In this document: positions 1,770-22,500 of the stretch, piece by piece
Position numbering within the stretch: position 1 is the stretch's first letter
How the letters are laid out: the number at the start of each line of letters is the position of its first letter
From: Chromera velia
Taxonomy: Eukaryota > Sar > Chromeraceae
Direction of reading: 5' to 3'
Assembly: GCA_018398765.1 (NCBI GenBank)
Contig: JAHBMJ010001644.1
Location: 1-22,500 of the forward strand
DNA length: 22,500 nt
Position numbers and translations under genes: made by a program
Notes under the pieces: generated by a model
The model's input: only the letters and a program-made list of their open reading frames with translations
Database searches by the model: none
What the model was told of the DNA's origin: nothing

Positions 1770-1810
1770 AGGCTTGAAGGAAACAGACGACAACTCAGGT
1801 GAAGGTCGAT

Positions 1811-3652
1811 ATGCCTTGGGACGAAAACGTCGCCGATCGGGGCGGCGGAGTGCAGCTTCCTCCGCATCCCCAAACACAGTCGCAACAGTCCTTTCCCGAC
1901 ATGCAGCAGCCGCACCTTCAGCATCAGACCCCACCCCAACAGCAGCCGGCTTTTTTCCCCGCGCTGCCCCTCGAAAATGGACGTCACGTGCAGCTGGCTA
2001 TCGCCTCCAACTTTTACCTTCCCGAAGGATGCATAGGGCAGTACACATGCACAGTCCATCCCTTCGAGGGTTTGTGTTGGGGGGAGGGGAAGTATGAGTT
2101 GGCGGTTTGCCGAAGCCCCAAGGGTGTGCCCTTCATTCATCTGATCAAAGCAGGCACTTTCGACAGATCCCAGACTTTCATTTCCTCCTGCGCAGGTGAG
2201 AGCTATGCAGTCGGGTCGGGAGAAGACGCCCGTCCGTCTTCCTCCACTCGTGACGAGAGTGATGACAAAACTGTCGTCAGTGTGAGTGACGAGAGTTCGC
2301 GCAGTGAGACGAGTGACGCGGGGTCGGTCCAGGACACCTTGGATGAGTTGACAATCCGCCAACTCTCCAGCTCCCATGAAGAGGAGACTAGAGCCTCCCG
2401 CCGTGCCGTGGCACGTTCCTACCTCACAGCAACAGAAGCAGCGTGCCTGGCAGGAAACGTACAAGAGTTTCTCAGAATAGCCGTACGCATGGGTGCAGCC
2501 GATCCCTCGAACGACTCCCCTCAGCCCTCCTCTGACAGTCAGAAAGGTCACACTAGGGAGGGAAACTCAGGTGGGGGGTCGGGGGGAGGTTGGCGGCCTG
2601 TTGACTCCGATCGGCGTTCGTGGAGGGCCGCCAAGAGAAAGCGGCTCCGTCTGAAGTTGGCATCCATTGCCACCGTTTCAGACAATGTCCGCATCTTCAA
2701 CGCCCTCGAAAGGTTGGGAGTTGAGCTCTCCTCCAAGCGCGTGATCGCCGCAGTGCGACGTGCTGCGACCCGTCATGACCACACCCGCGTCTGGGATTCT
2801 TTGTTTACCGCCGGGCGTCTGCAACACAGATGCGTGGAGAGATTTGTGGTAGCAGCGATTGAGCATCGAGCCTGGCGGTGTGTGTTTTGGGCAGCTATGA
2901 AGGGCGCGGTTGGGCGTCGGTGGTTGGTGCATCGGTTGGTGCAGAGGGGGGATCTGACCCTTCTGTCCCGCCTGCAGCGGGCAGGGTGGCCGTTGAAGTG
3001 GAGGGGAAGGGAAGATCTCAGAGATATTGCTCTGTCCTCTCGCGCCGCCCACGTTGCGCTGTGGGCGAATGAAGTCGCTGCGGTCGAGGCGTCCACGAAG
3101 CGACGCGGAAGGCACGACAGGTTGTGTGCTGACGCACGCATCAGTAGATCCTCGTCCCCCTGTCTGCGTACCGCCGCCATGGGGTCGCTGCACGGGAGCA
3201 CGATGGGGGTTGGGGGAGACAGGGGGGCTGCCTCTGCCCTCCACCACCACCACCATGCGCAACCCGATCATCAGCATCACCACACCTCCCCCCCCGCCCC
3301 CGGCTCCTCAGGCTTTGGCCTCACGGCTCAGCAGAGAGCGTCCCCTCCCTCGGGGGCCCGGCAGCAGTTCTCAGCGGCAGGCCGGGGGGGCGCGGGGGTT
3401 CGGGCGAGAGAGCGGGGTGAGGATTCATCTGGTGGGACAGACGAAGAGAGAGAGAGGCGGGTGGGCATAGGGCGGGAAGGCAAGGGAGATCACACAGACG
3501 CCAGAGGGCGTCTCCATGCGGGAGGTGAAGGAAGAGTGCCGAGCCACAGACAGGCAGGAGCACCCCCCACTCCGAGCAGCAGCCGTTTCCTTCTTCCCTC
3601 GTTGCCCTACGTACCTGCAGACGCCCACTCCAGCTTCCGGGTTGGGCGGTAG
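1811..3652 (+). CDS. Hypothetical 613-aa protein with degenerate ankyrin-like helical hairpins
   Basis: This is the longest open frame in the window and has no stop for 1.84 kb. I take the ATG at 1811; the frame is open four codons further up, but only to a GTG. Residues 1-47 are Gln/Pro-rich. Residues 48-128 form a compact, hydrophobic, Cys-containing block. Residues 136-200 are Ser/Asp/Glu-rich and probably disordered. Residues 206-229 resemble an ankyrin hairpin (AACLAGNVQEF...GA). A Gly-rich linker (253-260) and a basic NLS-like patch, AAKRKRLRLK (273-282), follow. Between about 310 and 425 are four further helix-pair segments spaced about 30 residues apart, which look like degenerate ankyrin repeats. 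The C-terminal third is low complexity, with two His runs (478-482, 489-491) and Ser/Gly/Arg-rich sequence. I do not recognise the family. The NLS-like patch hints at a nuclear protein, but that is inference. Long antisense frames opposite it are treated as shadows. Confidence 0.72.
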   Translation: MPWDENVADRGGGVQLPPHPQTQSQQSFPDMQQPHLQHQTPPQQQPAFFPALPLENGRHVQLAIASNFYLPEGCIGQYTCTVHPFEGLCWGEGKYELAVCRSPKGVPFIHLIKAGTFDRSQTFISSCAGESYAVGSGEDARPSSSTRDESDDKTVVSVSDESSRSETSDAGSVQDTLDELTIRQLSSSHEEETRASRRAVARSYLTATEAACLAGNVQEFLRIAVRMGAADPSNDSPQPSSDSQKGHTREGNSGGGSGGGWRPVDSDRRSWRAAKRKRLRLKLASIATVSDNVRIFNALERLGVELSSKRVIAAVRRAATRHDHTRVWDSLFTAGRLQHRCVERFVVAAIEHRAWRCVFWAAMKGAVGRRWLVHRLVQRGDLTLLSRLQRAGWPLKWRGREDLRDIALSSRAAHVALWANEVAAVEASTKRRGRHDRLCADARISRSSSPCLRTAAMGSLHGSTMGVGGDRGAASALHHHHHAQPDHQHHHTSPPAPGSSGFGLTAQQRASPPSGARQQFSAAGRGGAGVRARERGEDSSGGTDEERERRVGIGREGKGDHTDARGRLHAGGEGRVPSHRQAGAPPTPSSSRFLLPSLPYVPADAHSSFRVGR

Positions 3653-14566: not shown

Positions 14567-15651
14567 AAAGCAGGTAGAGTCTTTTCAGATAAGTGACGCA
14601 ATACACACGTAGACGTGTACTCAACTGCACTGCCGGAAGGAATGCGCATGCACGACACTGTCGATCAAGCGATGGGTCAATGAATGAATGACAGACAGCA
14701 CCTCGACCGATCAGAGAGACAAGACCCATGCAGCCATCCAGCAGAAACTCATTTGAAGGTTCTCTTCGTCCCTCCCTCCCTTCTGTCCTCACTTGACAAA
14801 TTAAGAGATTCCTTCCACCCATCGGTCGGCTTCGCAACTCACACGTAGCGTGCTTGTGTTCCATCCATGCATCCATCTACTTGACTGACTCGAACAAGCA
14901 ACCCCCCTCTGCACCCGCCCTGAATTCCCTTTTGTTCCTGGATGGACGGCAGCTATGCAGTTAGATCGCTGGAGTCAGTGCATGACCTCTTTTCTTTTCA
15001 ATCAAAAAGAGATACAGACCGGAAAGAAAGGGACGATCGAGTCTGCTGTCGGTATTTCCATCTCGGCTCTCCCATACAGGCCGTCTCCTACCGTCTTCCC
15101 TCCTCCCCTGAGTCCCCTCCTCAAACCGTTCATGCAGTTGGTGAATTCCGTTTTGAAGGCATGGATCGATGGAAGGAGCCTGCGGACATGCAGAGAAGCA
15201 ATGTTATGAAACGATACGCGCACGCAGCTTGATTTCAAAGTCTCATAACGAAGAGAATGTGAAGCAACAGTTGCATGCATGAGCGATTTAAAAACATTAA
15301 TGTGCAAGATGGAGTATAAAAGCAAAAGACTTGCGAATCACTGTCGATTCGATCGTTTAAAACTTTGATGTGCATATGAATAATATATTGAATATTGCGT
15401 CACTTTGCGTGAATAACATATCTAAGGATATTTATAATAACTAATAACAACTAGAGATTTAGGTTACGCATGCCGGGGGCGAGTAGGGTGCTTTTTGCCC
15501 CCCTAAAGCGGCGCATTTCCACAAAAAACTCGTTCTCATAATTGGTAAAGAGTTAGAAGCTGAAACTTTGTGTAAGAAGACGTTGTAATGATAGAAAAAG
15601 AACTATGGAACAGATTTTTTATACTACTATCATTTTTAGAAATATACGCTG

Positions 15652-15735
15652 CCATACAAATTTTATGAGTGTTGGGCCATTTTTTAACGGTTTTCAACAA
15701 TAAGAAAAACGGTATAAAACTCACAAAATTTGTAT
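15652..15735. repeat. Inverted repeat (hairpin-forming), about 17-bp arms
   Basis: The left arm at about 15653-15670 (ATACAAATTTTATGAGT) is complementary to the right arm at about 15717-15735 (ACTCACAAAATTTGTAT), with one mismatch. The loop is about 46 bases and contains AACGGTTTT and AAAACGG words. It may be a structural part of the element upstream of the recombinase frame. Confidence 0.7.
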
Positions 15736-15988
15736 CACGACGGTCGGGACTGCCTGTACATATACCTGGGGTCACGCGCAGCCGGACCCCGGAGCCAACC
15801 ACTGAATCCCATGCGGTATCCGGGTCCAAAGCATGTGGTACCGATACCCAGAACTTCCGATGCCCTTGTCCAAAATCTACAATCACCAAAGCCAGTGTCT
15901 GTACCCGTATCCAGGAGAAGCTGTCCTTAGCAGTGTTCCAGTAGCGAAAATCAGTAGCGCGACCCATCAATATCGATCGAACGAAGCA

Positions 15989-15998
15989 TATATAAAGG
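15989..15998 (+). promoter_or_regulatory. Possible TATA box for the 16036 reading frame
   Basis: TATATAAAGG lies about 40 bases upstream of the ATG at 16036, and transcription starting about 30 bases downstream would leave a very short leader. The match to a TATA consensus is good. Function is inferred from sequence and position only. Confidence 0.35.
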
Positions 15999-16035
15999 TA
16001 AAGGCCGGAAATTCCGATCGTCTGTCTATCTCAAC

Positions 16036-16317
16036 ATGTCAGGCGGCCTTCAGAATTTTGACTTTTCGAGTCTAATACAAGATCAGGCAGTCACGCTTGA
16101 CAGACGTACGGCAGCAAGCAAAGGGAAGACTCCCTTTGGAGATCATATAATTAATTTCGAGGGACCGCAAAACGACAGGAACCGCAAAACGCTGCTGCTT
16201 CACAGAGAGCGTCAACTTGTTGCTTCGAAAGTTAATCAGGCGCATTTCACCTTTCATAAGTATGTTGTCTCTCTCAATCTTCTCTACAACTCGACAAGCA
16301 TGACGGCACGCCGATAG
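16036..16317 (+). pseudogene. Element-associated 93-codon open frame, unrecognised
   Basis: An ATG (16036) in an AACATGTCAG context opens 93 codons that end at a TAG (16315-16317), just where the tyrosine-recombinase frame takes over in another phase. The peptide starts MSGGLQNFDF and is basic in the middle. I find no known motif. The abutting frames suggest it was once the N-terminal part of the recombinase protein, separated by a frameshift or deletion. A GTATGT donor-like site at 16260 is present, but none of the nearby AG sites would restore the downstream phase, so an intron does not easily explain the break. It could instead be an unrelated short frame. Confidence 0.35.
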
Positions 16318-16934
16318 GGGAAGCTGTGCTGGAGTTCCTAGATATAGCACCTGTGGACGAACCCCTGTTTAAAACTACAAAGGCACATGAAAACCAGTGG
16401 ACCGAGAAACCGCTGGGGAGAGATGCGTTTCAAACTGCGCTGCAGAAAGCAATCGCAGCAGCAGCACCAGAAGCAGCAGCAGAGCTCAAGGAATACACCA
16501 CCCACTCATTGCGCCGAAGCGGGTTCTGCGCAGCAAAGAAGGCTGCAATCCCATATGAGTTGGCAATCAATATTTTGGGGTACAATAGCTCCGATGTATG
16601 ACTGTCATATTTCCCGCCCGAGCTCCCTAACATTGCAACCGCTGTAGCCTCCATTTATAAGTTGTGCAGGACCAGTGTGGACCAGACCGACACGCAGTCC
16701 ATGCGCGGCCCTCAGCGATTCGGAAGGCTCCCAGTCACACCAGATGGGGTGGGGTTTGTGGGGGAACAACAGAGGCATCAGCGAAAGGGCGGCAGAGTGG
16801 GTGAGACGCGAGCCAAAGCCCAAGAGCGCGAAACGTCCGATAGCCGGAGGTCCGGAAGGGCGGATGCCCCGAGCGAACACGGAACACTGAAAGTCGGCCG
16901 TGGGCCCAGAGTGAGCGAGTGTACTAAAAGATGA
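16260..16934 (+). pseudogene. Tyrosine recombinase C-terminal domain relic (transposon-derived), with internal TGA
   Basis: The frame reads through the catalytic half of a tyrosine recombinase, the enzyme class that cuts and rejoins DNA through a 3'-phosphotyrosine. THSLRRSG at 16500-16523 is the HxxR box (His 16503, Arg 16512). LGYNSSDV follows, then LSY with the likely nucleophile Tyr at 16608. The Arg-to-Tyr distance is 32 residues, the same as between Arg292 and Tyr324 of Cre, and Gly-Tyr of LGYN sits where GH/GW is usual (aromatic 9 residues before the nucleophile). A TGA at 16599-16601 lies three codons before that Tyr, where relatives often have an aromatic residue. After it the frame stays open to 16932-16934. 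An in-frame TAA at 16257 and the missing first catalytic Arg region show loss of the 5' half. A GCA-rich run encodes Ala (about 16455-16490). A DIRS- or Crypton-like source is likely but unproven. Confidence 0.75.
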
Positions 16935-16982
16935 GTAGGTAGAACTAGGATTCAACGGAGTGAGAGGCTGTGAAGTCTGAAG
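16778..16982. repeat. 205-bp GC-rich repeat, copy A
   Basis: It matches 17426-17630 over the full 205 bases with scattered substitutions. The shared sequence starts at TCAGCGAAA and ends at GAAGTCTGAAG. It overlaps the 3' end of the open frame that continues from the recombinase, so the repeat may be the 3' end of that element. Weaker similarity extends about 18 bases further left (GGGGGAACAACAGAGGCA versus GGGGGGACAATAAAGGCA near 17333). Confidence 0.9.
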
Positions 16983-17332
16983 TGTTGGTTCAGCTGGAGC
17001 GATTAGCGGAAGCGTGAACCCTGGTTCAGACAGAACGAAGGATGAACGAAGGTAATGATGCCGTCTCCGGCGCGTGCATATTTTTTTTTTTCCTTAGAAA
17101 AACCAGAATTTTGATAGCCCCTAGAAAAAGGGTATAATCACGATTATTTTAATTCGGCTGCGAAGTCTCCGCACCAAAATAAATTTCCCACCCACCCATC
17201 CCGACGCTGGGAGTGAGAGGCCCCGTCACAGCGATGGCACCACTAGTCCGCAAGGGCATTACCGGAGACGGGGAAGGAAACGGCCTAGAAATCTGGTCCA
17301 TTATAGTGTTCGCCTAGAGTAGAATTAGAGCG
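16983..17332. other. Spacer between the 205-bp repeats
   Basis: No gene is seen. It contains a T-run (about 17081-17091), an AT-rich patch (17095-17190) and an exact inverted pair, CCGTCTCCGG at 17061-17070 and CCGGAGACGG at 17262-17271. GGTAATG (17051) and CATTACC (17257-17263) lie beside the pair but in permuted order. It may be a small inserted element. Confidence 0.45.
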
Positions 17333-17350
17333 GGGGGGACAATAAAGGCA

Positions 17351-17425
17351 TCAGCAAAAGGGCGGCAGAGCGGGTCAGACGCGAGCTAAAGCCCGAGGGC
17401 GCGAAGCACCTGATAGCCGGAGGTC
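17351..17425. repeat. 75-bp partial repeat unit, copy B
   Basis: The first 75 bases of the 205-bp repeat are duplicated in tandem immediately before copy C (TCAGC at 17351 and again at 17426). The offset of 75 is a multiple of three, so a minus-strand frame stays open across both. Confidence 0.9.
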
Positions 17426-17630
17426 TCAGCGAAACGGTGGCAGAGCGGGTGAGACGCGAGCCAAAGCCCGAGAGCGCGAAGCGCCCGATAGCCGGAGGTC
17501 CGGAAGGGCGGATCCCCCAAGGGAACATGAAACACCGAAAGTGGGCCATGGGTGCAGAGTGAGCGAGTGTGCTAAAAGATGAGTAGGTAGAACTAGGATT
17601 GAACGGACTGAGAGGCTGTGAAGTCTGAAG
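17426..17630. repeat. 205-bp GC-rich repeat, copy C
   Basis: Direct repeat of 16778-16982, 648 bases downstream, in the same orientation. The match stops within a base or two of the same sequence (GAAGTCTGAAG), which helps define the right edge of the repeat family. Confidence 0.9.
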
Positions 17631-17639
17631 GGATGATAA

Positions 17640-18281
17640 GAGAGGGCTCACTGACAGATCCGAGAGAGTTGGAGAGACGGAAGAGACGGTGGAGACACTG
17701 AGTGCATGGAGGGATGAGGTGCACGTGTACGGCCAGCGGATCCATGCACCTAGCCATGCACGCGCATGCATCCAGTGGCCTGGCCTCACCGCACTGCACC
17801 AGAAGGAGACGGCATGATGGTATGTCTCAGTAGCAGATAGTGGCAGCTCATAGCAGCTCGGATCATGCAGTAAGTATCAGGCGTCGAGCTAGAGCTTTGC
17901 CTGAGAGACGCCCTGGAACATCGGTTACTACAGATTTGTATTTGTGCCTCAGGGGACTTTCCCGCGTGTTGGTTCACCGGCTCCGCCTCTATACTACACT
18001 TTCAGAATTTTCTGGCCGCCTTTAAAACATTTGTTTGTTCTCTTCGATGGTGGTTGCTCCTTTGAGCTCGTCTCGTCTCGTTTTGGTGGACTAACTCCGC
18101 CTTACGACTGTCTGACGTTGTCTGATTTCCCTTGACTCGTACCTATTACTTGCATTCAAAACGTTTTTCCTTTTTTTTGCAGCTTCTAAGCTGTGAGGCC
18201 CTGTTTTCAAGTGATCTTCAATTGGATACTTTGTTCGTCCGTCTCGTCGGTTGTTTTGGCCTGTGGACAGGTGTGTTCATA
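17640..18281. other. Upstream region of the coiled-coil frame
   Basis: No gene is called. A palindrome-rich patch (CATGCACGCGCATGCATCC, about 17754-17772) is followed by mixed sequence. A pyrimidine-rich run ending in TTTTTTTTGCAG at about 18180 is a strong splice acceptor, so a 5' exon probably lies to the left and the coiled-coil exon may begin at 18181. No clear TATA box is seen. Confidence 0.45.
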
Positions 18282-18563
18282 ATGGCAGCGGAATTTTTGA
18301 GTCAGGTGTCTCCTTCTCAAGCCGAACGCAATAGGGATACCGGCAGTAATCGAGAGAAAGAACTCGAAAGCCGTGTTGCCGAGGTAGAGGCCGAAAGAGA
18401 CGCCATCATTAGTTGGAACAAGGAGCTGGAGACCTGTCTTGCTGAGGCCGAAGCTGCGAGAGAGGTCGCTACCAACCGCATGAAAGAGTTCGAGACCCGT
18501 CTCACCAGAGATGCGGTAGTTTATGAAGATACTGGTAGTCGCAATACTGCGGCGGGTACATAG
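18282..18563 (+). CDS. Coiled-coil protein or exon with three 21-residue repeats
   Basis: The ATG at 18282 opens 93 codons. The frame is also open upstream to about 18132, but a likely acceptor ends at 18180 and that upstream peptide looks noncoding. Residues 23-75 contain three copies of a 21-residue (three-heptad) repeat marked by KELES, KELET and KEFET at residues 26, 47 and 68, rich in Glu, Ala, Arg and Lys, as expected for a coiled coil. The frame ends at TAG 18561, but a GT at 18556 inside GGGTACAT may be a donor, so this may be one exon of a longer protein. It lies about 310 bases upstream of the AP2 domain on the same strand. I could not find a phase-correct join between them, so they may be separate genes. 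I recognise no function beyond the coiled coil. Confidence 0.55.
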   Translation: MAAEFLSQVSPSQAERNRDTGSNREKELESRVAEVEAERDAIISWNKELETCLAEAEAAREVATNRMKEFETRLTRDAVVYEDTGSRNTAAGT

Positions 18564-18656
18564 GGCCGTATGCCCTTTCCTCCCTTCCGCTTCCTCAGCG
18601 TTTTGAAGTATTCAATGCCTCTGCTCTGGAACTTCCCTGTCTGTCTTGCAGATTGA

Positions 18657-18873
18657 ATTTCCGCAAACTTGAAAACCAAAAAGAGATGGAAAGCAATTTT
18701 CAAACCTCCCGGAGATGGAGACGGCCATGAGCAAGCTGCAGCAGCGAAAGATCTGCCTCAAAAAAAGAGAAGACGTCAGTCTGTATCAAATCTGTTGCAT
18801 GCAGTGGGATGGAAAGAGCATCATCTCTTCGAGGCTGAGTTACATCATCTATCTTTCTATTCTCCTTGCAGAG
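18657..18873 (+). other. Probable basic (NLS-like) exon before the AP2 domain, with a possible intron 18783-18873
   Basis: An acceptor (CTGTCTTGCAG) ends at 18651. One downstream frame encodes a basic stretch with TKKRWK (18672-18689) and PQKKRRRQS, ending at 18782. A donor-like GTATCA at 18783 and an acceptor TTGCAGAG ending at 18873 would join this frame in phase to the AP2 frame. Using the CAG that ends at 18871 instead breaks the phase. In another phase the AP2 frame runs unspliced from about 18715, so splicing here is uncertain. Confidence 0.35.
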
Positions 18874-19301
18874 ACTCAAAATGGACTGTTCCCTTACACA
18901 CGTGAGGGCAAGGAAGTTGGGTTTAAGGTGAGATGGAGGGACGAGAAGAATGTAGAAAGGGCGCGGACGTTCACCTTTGCCCAGTACGGTGACAAAGCTG
19001 AGGAGGAGGCTACAAAATTGAGAGACGAGAAGGTGAGCAAAGAAAACAGCTGCCACTGGGCGGTTCGTCTGCCTGAGGGTCAGTCAGAGAGCGACGGAGG
19101 GCGAGAGGCGGCCATCCCAAGGGGAGAGGGAGAGAAGCCTCCTGGCCCCTACAAAGACTGCCTAAAGGGGATATCGGCCTCAGACCTGAAGACGGGACCT
19201 CAGTCGAAAGCGGACGTAGCTGCAATTCCAGCGTCGGAGAAACAGAGACCGAGAAAGGGCATGACATGGCGAGAAAGCAACCAGACTTAGAATTTTACAT
19301 G
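18874..19301 (+). CDS. ApiAP2-like transcription factor: AP2 domain I and the start of AP2 domain II
   Basis: AP2 domains bind DNA with three beta-strands packed on a helix, and alveolates use them as transcription factors. Here 18874-19035 shows the whole pattern: NGLFPYTRE (strand 1), VGFKVRWRD (strand 2), ARTFTFAQYG (strand 3), then a helix with A..A..R spacing ending in KLRDEKV. A hydrophilic linker follows. A second domain starts with GMTWRESNQT at about 19258-19287 and NFTW after it, but the codon between them (19288-19290) is TAG. In AP2 domains that position is usually Trp, so a TGG-to-TAG change is the simplest explanation. A strong donor-like GTGAGC at 19033 could also end the exon after domain I. 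The frame is open and unspliced from about 18715 to 19290. The gene is either a pseudogene or makes a one-domain protein. Confidence 0.65.
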
Positions 19302-19304
19302 GTG

Positions 19305-19521
19305 GTCAGTTGGAGGAGGAAGGCGGTCCAACGTAGCTTTAGCTTGTCCCTTCAAATCCTTCACTCCTAGTTCTCTGGGCGCCAAGTGTGAGCAAGCAGA
19401 GGTCGCTCCGTTTCTTTTACGTCTGATTGAGTAATGAGTTACATTGCGGGACCCTTCATGTTTTATGATCGACAAAGAGTCCTTTTGTTTTTTCTTTCGT
19501 GGCCTACGTCTGTTCCTGCAG
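19305..19521 (+). other. Predicted intron splitting AP2 domain II
   Basis: The donor GTCAGT (19305-19310) and the acceptor TGTTCCTGCAG (ending at 19521, after a T-rich tract) join the two halves of AP2 domain II in phase (two bases plus one). The alternative donor GTGGTC at 19302 is also in phase. The same GTCAGT donor appears at two introns of the SET gene (21263 and 21726), which supports the choice. Confidence 0.55.
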
Positions 19522-19729
19522 GGATTCGAACCTGAGCAAGCATCAGCGGAAGATATTTAAGGCGACTCGCTACGGCTTTGTAGATGCAAAGAAACTTGCC
19601 CTCATACAAAGGCAGCACTTCCTGAAAAATGGAATCTGTGCTGAGAGACGAAAAAAATGTCTGAAGAAGACGCCTCCGACTGCTGACCACTTCCCTTTGC
19701 GGTCAGCCAATTTTTTGACAGAACCCTGA
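19522..19729 (+). CDS. ApiAP2-like protein: second half of AP2 domain II and C-terminus
   Basis: After the acceptor at 19521, the phase-2 frame reads DSNLSKHQRK, IFKATRYGF and VDAKKLALIQRQHFL. This is the third strand and helix of an AP2 domain, with the hallmark F.....YGF..A..LA...R. The first strands lie upstream of the predicted intron, so this exon by itself is half a domain. A Lys/Arg/Cys-rich tail follows, ending at TGA 19727. A donor-like GTCAGC at 19702 lies before that stop and is in phase 2, matching the phase needed at the acceptor ending at 20763 in the SET region, so the exon may continue into a longer protein. Domain II as a whole is broken by the TAG at 19288. Confidence 0.6.
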
Positions 19730-19778
19730 TCCCACTAGTTTGGAGATCCATGCTAGCAAACTACAGAGAGGAAGACAC

Positions 19779-19836
19779 ACAGACAGACACAACGACAGAC
19801 AGACACACAGACAGTCTGAAACAGATACACAGATCA

Positions 19837-19873
<37 letters not shown>

Positions 19874-19880
19874 GACAGAC
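19779..19880. repeat. (ACAG)n microsatellite
   Basis: About 100 bases of imperfect ACAG repeats with ACAC and GAAACAG interruptions, leading into the 239-bp minisatellite. Confidence 0.93.
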
Positions 19881-20341
19881 ATGCATGAACACACACATAC
19901 GCACCCCTATGCAATTGAAGTGAGGAGAGAGAGGCGAGTGCACACACACCCGGATCCCTAAGGTAAGTCAAAGCTGACCGCTTCATGCGCAGCCGGGCGA
20001 TCTCGCGTGCGAACCGGTCCCCGACGCTGCTGCACTGTCGGAAAAGCAACGAGACGAAAGCTGCAAGGCAGGTGGGCAGACCGACAGACAGACAGACAGA
20101 CAGACAGAGACAGACAGACATGCACGAACACACACATACGCACCCCTATGCAATTGAAGTGAGGAGAGAGAGGCGAGTGCACGCACACCTGGATCCCTAA
20201 GGTAGGTTGAGGCCGACTGCTTCATGCGCAGCCGGGCGATCTCATGCGCGAACCGGTCCCCAACGCTGCTGCACTGTCGGAAGAGCGACGAGACGAAAGC
20301 TGCGAGGTAGGTGGGCAGACAGACAGACAGACAGACAGACT
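19849..20341. repeat. 239-bp minisatellite, about two copies, starting and ending in ACAG runs
   Basis: Words such as GCACCCCTATGCAATTG (19901 and 20140) and CTTCATGCGCAGCCGGGC (19981 and 20220) recur at exactly 239 bases. Each unit runs from an ACAG run through a CACACATACGC segment to a GC-rich segment, and ends in another ACAG run. A third unit starts at about 20317 but diverges at CTAAGG (20340). Copy 1 contains a consensus-perfect splice donor, AAG/GTAAGT, at about 19961; the second copy has GTAGGT there. Confidence 0.92.
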
Positions 20342-20344
20342 AAG

Positions 20345-20764
20345 GGATAGAAAGAGAGAGGATGCCCAAGGCAGACAGAGTGAGATGAGCAGAAGAGCAC
20401 AGGTAGAGATAAGAGGGGAGAAAAGAGTGGAGGGGGATCGAGAGCGAAAAGGGGGGAGAGGTGAAGGAAGAGAGAAACTGAGACCATCGAAGGGGACTGT
20501 TGAAGGCTCTTCGCGGGAAACTCTCCTGGAAGCTTTGAGAAAGTGTCTTCGAAGCTTGGCCGGCACCCACATATAGCGACGAGCAAAGGTGGAAAGCAAA
20601 AGTGAAAAGACAGGACACTATTATTTGGGCAAAATCGGACGGGGAGATGCGGCAATAGCAAACGCATACATAGATAGTCGTAGGCAGACAGAAAACAAAA
20701 CGGATACAAAGACAGAGGAAGGCCACTTTTGCGCAATAAATGATTCCCTCTCAAATGTTGCAGG
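20345..20764 (+). other. Uncharacterised open stretch between minisatellite and SET exons
   Basis: One plus-strand frame is open from within the minisatellite to a TAG at 20574 and then again from 20577 to a stop at 20793. The part from about 20505 to 20760 has mixed, protein-like composition (for example GHYYLGKIGRGDAAIAN). Before that it is purine-rich and compositional. An acceptor-like CACATATAG ends at 20576. I recognise no domain. It may hold an upstream exon of the SET gene or simply be intronic. Confidence 0.25.
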
Positions 20765-20914
20765 GTGGTACCTCTTGAGGAGACTGAATGATTGAAGGAG
20801 GCTCTCAAGTCGTACGTGCGGATTGAGAAAAATATGTGTGTTCCAAATAAGAAGACTGTGCAAGCCAGGCTTCCAAAAATATATGCGGAAAGCATGCAGG
20901 ACATGCTTTATCAG
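20765..20914 (+). pseudogene. AWS-SET methyltransferase: predicted exon upstream of AWS
   Basis: The frame leads in phase into the AWS exon: it ends at TATCAG/GTGGGG (20914) in phase 0, and the AWS exon starts in phase 0. It encodes LKEALKSYVRIEKNM and then a basic stretch. Y..I..N patterns are common just before AWS domains in ASH1-type enzymes. The acceptor ATGTTGCAG ends at 20763. An in-frame TGA at 20789-20791 lies between EETE and LKEAL, so either the real exon starts later, the codon was once TGG, or the copy is dead. Confidence is lower than for the next two exons because the motif match is loose. Confidence 0.45.
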
Positions 20915-21194
20915 GTGGGGAGCGTTGTTCATTTACTTTCCCCTTGTTCGCTTTCTTGCTTGCCGATTTTCTCTTTCATTCAGTCTGTCTCTTTTCTCTA
21001 AGTTCCGATTCGTCAAGCCAATCTTACTTTTTGATGCCGGATCTTTGACATTCAAGTGAAGCTACTCTGCCCATGATCATTCTTTATGGAGTGACAGTAA
21101 GGAAAGGGTACAGGTCGTGTAGGCGGCCAAATTTAATGATCCACCACGATCTTCTGCCTTTTTCTTTGGTTTGGTGCATATTTAAGTCTTGCAG
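20915..21194 (+). other. Predicted intron before the AWS exon
   Basis: Donor GTGGGG at 20915 and acceptor AAGTCTTGCAG ending at 21194, with pyrimidine-rich stretches at about 20936-21000. Both ends are phase 0. Confidence 0.45.
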
Positions 21195-21262
21195 TGCAAA
21201 CTTCTGAACGCAAAGTGCGACGAAGGCTGCTTGAACAGCGCGGCCTCGGTCGAGTGCACCCC
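21195..21262 (+). pseudogene. AWS-SET methyltransferase: first AWS exon (68 bp)
   Basis: Twenty-two codons plus two bases encode a Cys-rich peptide with AKCDEGCLN and VECTP. This is the start of an AWS (associated-with-SET) zinc-binding domain, which in ASH1, NSD and SETD2 enzymes reads C..(D/E).C.N......EC. The acceptor TCTTGCAG is strong and the donor is GTCAGT (21263). Joined to the next exon, the cysteine pattern continues with EC-TPKT-C, the spacing seen in ASH1-like proteins. Another frame over the same bases is open from 21194 but encodes no domain. Confidence 0.65.
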
Positions 21263-21484
21263 GTCAGTCTCCCTCCCGCAGACCCGCTCGCGCTTAATTG
21301 TCTACAGCTTGCTTACCTAGCTGCCTTCTCCTTTTACATTTGTTTTCCACTTTCATTTTCTTATTCTGCAACTTGCCCGCGGCTCTCTGTAAAGCACTGT
21401 TTCTGCTTTCTCCTCTCTTTTGTTTTTGTGCGCTGCGTGGTTGTGAACAGTTAATGCTTATACCCTGTCTTTATCTCGTTGCAG
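21263..21484 (+). other. Predicted intron inside the AWS domain
   Basis: Donor GTCAGT (21263) and acceptor TCGTTGCAG ending at 21484, with a T/C-rich body (about 21315-21480). The phase is 2 plus 1 (CC/G) and gives an in-frame Pro in the AWS motif. Confidence 0.6.
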
Positions 21485-21725
21485 GAAGACATGTTCGTGG
21501 GAAGCCTGCGAAGAGCACTGTGCGAACAGGCGTTTCTACCAGGTGCCCCGTCAGGTCAAAGTGATGGACAAAACATTCGTCGGCCAGAAGGACCAGGGAC
21601 TTAGGTTGTTCACTGCCTAGTTCACTGCAGAGCCCGTTGAGGAGGGACAGCCGGTGATCGAGTTTCTTGGGGAGATGCTTCTGGAGAAGTCGTACCAGTG
21701 GAAGAAGCGGCTGGATACCTGTATG
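21485..21725 (+). pseudogene. AWS-SET methyltransferase: end of AWS and first half of SET, with in-frame TAG
   Basis: SET enzymes move methyl groups from S-adenosylmethionine to histone lysines; the ASH1/NSD/SETD2 group with an AWS domain modifies H3K36. The frame opens with KTCSWEAC and HCANRRFYQ, the end of an AWS domain. It continues through VKVM to QGLRLFTA (the GxGL motif that opens SET) and VIEFLGEML (the conserved E-Y/F-x-G-E block). Between LFTA and EPVEEGQ stands a four-codon insert containing TAG (21618-21620), which ends translation. The exon closes at GTCAGT (21726) or possibly GTATGG (21721). The catalytic NHSC block is not found downstream in the window. The family call is strong; the product is almost certainly not made full length from this copy. 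Confidence 0.75.
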
Positions 21726-22500
21726 GTCAGTTATCTACTTGCACATGAGCCCCTCTGTTCATGCAACTCTGCCCTCGCTGTTGCTTCTCCTGATCCTTGC
21801 CTCTTTATCCAGCTGCCCTCCAGTGAGCCTGCGTCTCTTTTTCTTGATCCTTCCGCTGGCTTTAGACTGTCTCTGTGTCTTTGTGCGTGGCGTTCTCTGT
21901 GTCTTCGCACATCTCTGTCTGGTCACGTATGTGTTCCTCTCTGCCTTTGTCTCCTCCCGTTTTGTCTTTTTCCGGCCCTGTCGGCGCCCTCCTATGCATC
22001 ACTTAGTACATAGAGATGCATGTGCTTACGAACAAGAAACGGCTCCAGCACAATTGTGTGTCTTCATTCGTCAGCACATGGATGATTTAGAGGGGACGGT
22101 CCAACAAAACATGAACAGAGAAGTGAAAAACGTGTGGGCCTTTTTCTGCTTTTCGTGCCTGTCTTTTTGCCGAATCCTTCGTGTTCCATTGCCTTTTTTG
22201 TTCTTGTCTCTTTTTTCTCAAAGTCTCTTACTCACTCTCTTCTAGCGATCTCGCTCTGTGGAATGTCTAATTTGGCAGAAAAGAACTGAGCGAGCGTAAC
22301 GCACCGTCCATCTCTGAGCCGCTCATGGCCATCCCGATTCGTGAGGGAAAGGCTTGTCATCATCTGCTTCTCTGGAAACAGGATGAGAGAAAAAACTACT
22401 AATTCGTCTGTCGGTTATCAAAGGAGAACAAAAAGAATTACATGTCTGTCTATGTATCTGTGCCTCCTTCCGTCAGTCAGTCGCGAAATCAGGAAATAAA
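21726..22500 (+). other. Downstream region of the SET gene; no certain exon
   Basis: Mostly pyrimidine-rich intron-like sequence (21740-21990 and 22140-22245), with a more mixed patch at 22007-22130. An exon starting at 22007 after ATCACTTAG would be phase 0, matching the donor at 21726, and reads YIEMHVLTNKKR, but the resemblance to SET is weak. In another frame the patch is open through DACAYEQETA to about 22130, where GTGTGG could be a donor. A further acceptor-like CTCTTCTAG ends at 22245. I could not find the SET NHSC or post-SET Cys motifs, so the gene is truncated, decayed or continues past the window. Confidence 0.35.

Follow-up and report, generated by a model that had tools for sequence, protein, structure and literature searches.

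The locus considered here raises the question of whether three short coding pieces close to the end of a Chromera velia contig are the remains of an AWS-SET histone methyltransferase gene and, if so, what became of that gene. The window, by which is meant the entire stretch of DNA analysed, coincides with contig C1642 (22,500 bases), and the genome searched comprises 177.8 Mb in 4040 contigs. The three pieces lie on the forward strand, and each has an AG just upstream and a GT just downstream. Exon 1 (20764–20914) encodes a region N-terminal of the AWS domain. Exon 2 (21195–21262), followed by GTCAGT, encodes the first half of the AWS domain (CDEGCLN to VEC), which Pfam recognises on the joined product, and exon 3 (21485–21725) encodes the second half (HCANRRF) together with the N-terminal part of the SET domain (GLRLF to EFLGE). 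Introns 1 and 2 are 280 and 222 bases long. The initial annotation had placed exons 2 and 3 and the 20914 end of exon 1 exactly as found here, whereas the start of exon 1 is 20764 rather than 20765; its five motifs, CDEGCLN, ECTPKTC, HCANRRF, GLRLF and EFLGE, are reproduced in order and in the claimed frames. The two stops that it had read as signs of decay are both present and in frame: a TGA at 20789–20791, close to the 5′ edge of exon 1, and a TAG at 21618–21620 in exon 3. The latter is brought in by a 12-base insertion (21608–21619, forward strand), the placement of which is ambiguous by approximately 10 bases.

A second copy of these exons is found on contig C2934. As visualized by blastn and by DNA searches of the genome, positions 17853–22500 of the window (forward strand) correspond to 8090–3789 of C2934 on its minus strand, with approximately 92% identity running to the end of the window contig. 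The shared block spans approximately 4.65 kb and includes introns and flanks. Local blastn alignments cover 17853–19807 and 20083–22500, and the tandem-repeat stretch between them also matches, with fewer repeat units in C2934. Genome DNA searches with 20400–22500 and with 17853–19750, which skip simple repeats and very common words, each returned two matches, the query itself and C2934, at 92%. Similarly, searching the genome at the protein level with an E limit of 1 returned six exon matches, three in the window and three in C2934, in the same order. When the whole genome was searched with ASH1L without joining of exons, the C2934 copy ranked second (E 0.004) and the window fifth (E 0.12) of six matches, both weakly. 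The intact paralogue for which a search had been suggested was not found among close relatives; the only close relative found is the C2934 copy, which, as described below, is itself dead.

Comparison with protein families identifies the feature in both copies. Window exons 2 and 3, joined and read to the TAG, score 32.8 bits against Pfam AWS (PF17907), all three pieces joined score 30.7 bits, and the C2934 product scores 25.9 bits, each above the curated cut-off of 23.3 bits. Of the two profiles proposed in the initial annotation, only AWS is thus recovered for the window; its product has no match to Pfam SET at E up to 1, and the C2934 product reaches 13.3 bits over positions 1–29 of 105, below the SET cut-off of 22.4 bits. 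In phmmer searches of the PDB, the best solved relative of window exons 2 and 3 is ASH1L (E 3e-7, 33.7 bits), with NSD2 at 19.4 bits and SETD2 at 17.4 bits. The best match of the C2934 fragment is also ASH1L (1.6e-7, 34.6 bits), followed at 20–22 bits by an H3K36-specific chain and SETD2, EZH2-type and NSD2 chains. The EZH2-type chain nearly equals SETD2 on this fragment (20.8 versus 21.8 bits), and therefore only the ASH1L match stands out. NCBIfam has no match for either copy. Judged by these similarities, the feature is the AWS domain and the start of the SET domain of a methyltransferase of the H3K36 group, as had been claimed. The more specific ASH1-type label is likely rather than proven: ASH1L leads the best NSD and SETD2 chains by 14–16 bits in the window and by about 12–16 bits across both copies, in a comparison of a fragment that lacks the catalytic half with solved structures only.

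In a complete enzyme of this kind, the AWS domain binds zinc and the SET domain transfers methyl groups to histone H3. The window resembles ASH1 and ASH1L, which are H3K36 enzymes of AWS-SET architecture, in its pattern of AWS cysteines and in the start of its SET domain. The main differences are that neither an NHSC half nor a post-SET region was found with the window pieces, that the frame is broken by two stops, and that the window has four inserted residues in SET and additional ones in AWS. Animal ASH1L has a bromodomain, a PHD and a BAH domain downstream of SET. The SETD2/Set2 and NSD proteins share the AWS-SET order but give weaker matches (best chains 17–22 bits). In the part of the published account consulted, an H3K36-type SET gene of the ASHR3 type is described in apicomplexans and plants, with a PHD region upstream of its C-terminal SET domain (PMC3598677); it is alike in being an H3K36-type SET gene. 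A literature search returned nothing on the present locus, from which absence from print is not claimed.

The two copies carry different lesions. C2934 has neither the TGA nor the 12-base insertion of the window, and its exon 1 is stop-free; instead, its exon 3 contains a TAG of its own, at a site different from the window stops. The four residues inserted in the window are also absent from ASH1L, NSD2 and SETD2 in an alignment with fragments of these proteins. Since no lesion is shared by the two copies, the duplication probably took place while the frame was open at all three sites. A motif of the GWG type at the start of SET is important. The human proteins have GWG at this place, the window GLR and C2934 GLG. 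In addition, one AWS cysteine of the window is a tyrosine in C2934.

Divergence between the copies has the character expected in the absence of selection. Of the 284 differences counted over 4282 aligned sites, 247 are transitions and 37 are transversions, with transitions prevailing in exonic, intronic and flanking sequence alike. The proportion of changed sites is 26/448 for exons and 24/500 for introns (Fisher P 0.56), and a comparison of exons with all other non-tandem sites gives P 0.68. The coding differences comprise 19 non-synonymous changes, two stops included, and seven synonymous ones. Under equal weighting pN/pS comes to 0.70 (Fisher P 0.45), and it becomes 1.17 (P 0.83) when transitions are given a 13-fold weight; neither value differs from 1, although tests on so short a fragment have little power and weak constraint is compatible with them. 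Exon divergence thus looks neutral, being like that of the introns and mostly protein-altering. Two upstream stop-to-stop reading frames, 18126–18563 and 18673–19290, are open in the window and have one and two internal stops, respectively, in C2934. The decay originally read from two stops is accordingly supported by further evidence: the different stop in C2934, the similar divergence of exons and introns, and the predominance of non-synonymous changes.

The best explanation, to which we assign a probability of roughly 0.9, is that the feature is a pseudogene within a segmentally duplicated block, namely the 5′ portion of a gene for an AWS-SET histone-lysine methyltransferase that belongs to the H3K36 group and resembles ASH1 most closely. 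A block of at least 4.65 kb would have been duplicated within the genome before the frame was interrupted at any of the three lesion sites, and both copies would then have drifted without selection, mostly through transitions. The locus would make no working enzyme. Like other segmentally duplicated pseudogenes, from which it does not differ notably, it has kept its introns, shows neutral-looking divergence and bears different lesions in each copy. Beyond the initial annotation, the present analysis adds a second dead copy and evidence that the decay was neutral.

The ancestor of this pseudogene may have been an entire gene or the 5′ portion alone. It is close to an even call, leaning slightly against, that the duplicated block never held the whole gene and that copying involved a 5′ fragment that lacked the catalytic exons and was non-functional from the start. 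Such a history would be a form of the best explanation and does not exclude it. An NHSC block or a post-SET region was found neither in the 775 bases of the window after exon 3 (21726–22500, forward strand) nor in the 4.55 kb after exon 3 of C2934, where both contigs end; 3,788 bases of the latter fall outside the block that C2934 has in common with the window. With the C-terminal half of ASH1L as a tblastn query, the best E values were 15 in the window remainder and 0.96, on the opposite strand, downstream in C2934, both at chance level. A scan for NHxC over both whole contigs gave one match in each, at the same antisense place and with a stop after it. The earlier statement that no catalytic NHSC block lies nearby is thus true, although within the window it is weak evidence, the contig ending 775 bases past exon 3. 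A missing second half of SET in the 4.55 kb of C2934 is more telling beside introns 1 and 2 of only 280 and 222 bases, and both copies lie near multi-copy repeats, a setting that may favour partial copying. However, a long third intron or a later loss of the 3′ end would account equally well for the missing half, and the frame was apparently open at the lesion sites at the time of duplication, so that the visible decay is no older than the duplication.

The mutation spectrum may offer a different account of how the copies died. CpG sites contribute 90 of the 247 transitions, yet constitute only 19–20% of cytosine positions. When 27 loci were compared with one another and with the window, some repeat pairs were as biased, with transition to transversion counts of 33:3, 21:1 and 17:3, and others less so (55:35 and 15:28). 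The transition bias and the CpG excess suggest decay of methylated cytosines, perhaps targeted to repeats, and two copies give no direction of change. It is unlikely that both copies were killed by a C-to-T process that targets duplicated DNA, resembling either repeat-induced point mutation or heavy methylation of cytosines with subsequent deamination.

A slightly smaller chance is given to there being a single locus, of which the two contigs would represent divergent haplotypes. The recovery of only two copies, approximately 92% identical with their introns, is what haplotypes would give. The left boundary of the similarity speaks against this: a weak match extends leftward to approximately position 17762 of the window and 8161 of C2934, and upstream of these positions blastn finds no match between the two contigs.

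It is very improbable that the gene is functional and that its stops are avoided through alternative splicing or read-through. The GT and AG signals around all three exons, and the position of the TGA near the 5′ edge of exon 1, would suit such a gene. Mini-introns that might remove the TAG (16 or 26 bases, identified by eye) break the frame, however, and were rejected, and read-through was rejected on the neutral-looking divergence and the different stops of the two copies.

Because the joins had been freely chosen in the initial annotation, the resemblance was also set against a chance control. All GT-AG joins with introns of 60–400 bases and at most one stop were tested on both strands against an AWS-SET fragment of ASH1L. 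Among the 40,603 joins of the window, the 21262/21485 join of the initial annotation comes second with 38.5 bits, and only a version of it displaced by four bases scores higher, at 39.1 bits. Of these two, the annotated join would have the better splice consensus, with GTCAGT after exon 2 and TTGCAG before exon 3. Eighteen of 20 dinucleotide-shuffled windows, which offered 16,626–21,129 joins each, about half the number in the window, gave no match, and the remaining two gave 12.5 and 14.5 bits. That the AWS-SET resemblance is a product of exon choice is next to impossible given this gap, and C2934 repeats both the encoded features and their arrangement over the exons, although a 92% identical copy is no independent sample.

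The remainder of the genome was examined for other SET genes. Pfam SET gives 22 matches, and none of the 22 surrounding stretches clearly shows an upstream AWS domain. Searching these stretches with the exon pieces by tblastn returned two matches (best E 0.55), and AWS-like text patterns occur in two of the 22, neither convincing. Weak candidates are found on two contigs. An exon on C3461 matches ASH1L at E 0.0026 and SETD2 at E 0.0096, the longer SETD2 match including a TGA, and on its own it passes the SET cut-off (23.1 versus 22.4 bits, match at 44553–44645). On C3064, a SET-start match at 71895–72005 (SETD2 query, E 0.08) and a SET-end match at 70131–70271 (ASH1L query, E 0.03) are both weak, and lie in order on the minus strand without stops. 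These C3461 and C3064 matches could be living relatives. Among the 22 Pfam SET matches, a SET-type gene on C156 (113604–114275, minus strand; L037) contains ANHSCNPNC and a GCLNQQIQ stretch, and its SET match spans several stops, probably through crossing of introns.

A scan of the genome for the AWS family gave no matches, the window included, with 11 candidates scored; the controls were silent as well, which makes the scan uninformative, and the blank at the window probably arises because an intron splits the AWS domain. A splice-aware and stop-tolerant reading can thus recover a real relic of a chromatin enzyme that a six-frame domain scan misses. The window and C2934 also provide two copies of the same age from which the mutation spectrum of this genome can be measured. 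The locus is otherwise a fairly ordinary gene fossil that leaves knowledge of histone methylation unchanged.

The left flanks of both copies are rich in repeats. Positions 15500–17425 of the window have at least 82 matches in the genome, self included (best 40 of 352 candidates scored), and C2934 from about 9200 onward matches at least 39 other places at 90–94% (best 40 of 471 candidates scored). A repeat of approximately 230 bases at 15500–15735 has dozens of matches, on many contigs on both strands at nearly one place, and is perhaps an inverted repeat or MITE-like; self-comparison of this copy gives only short inverted matches. An open reading frame at 16260–16601 contains a stretch judged by eye to be like a tyrosine recombinase (THSLRRSG), without a Pfam recombinase match, and partly overlaps a repeat at 16303–17425 that has copies on C62, C1401 and C2732. 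Tandem repeats occupy 19838–20340 (239-base units) and 1–486 (265-base units).

Elsewhere in the window, the frame at 18673–19290 (205 codons) had been guessed by eye to encode an AP2 domain, which Pfam does not support; in addition to its stops, the C2934 counterpart has lost six bases. Scans of the window with Rfam and for tRNA genes were negative, and Pfam, searched at E up to 1, recognises nothing in an open frame of 624 codons at 1778–3652. The stretch L016 (600–1700, minus strand) is interrupted by stops and matches a PPPDE peptidase at 20.7 bits, below the cut-off of 29.2 bits; it is perhaps a pseudogene. Suggestive of a chromerid alga such as Chromera velia are the GC content of the window, approximately 50%, and the presence in the genome of two exon matches to PsbO and 56 matches to the AP2 domain.
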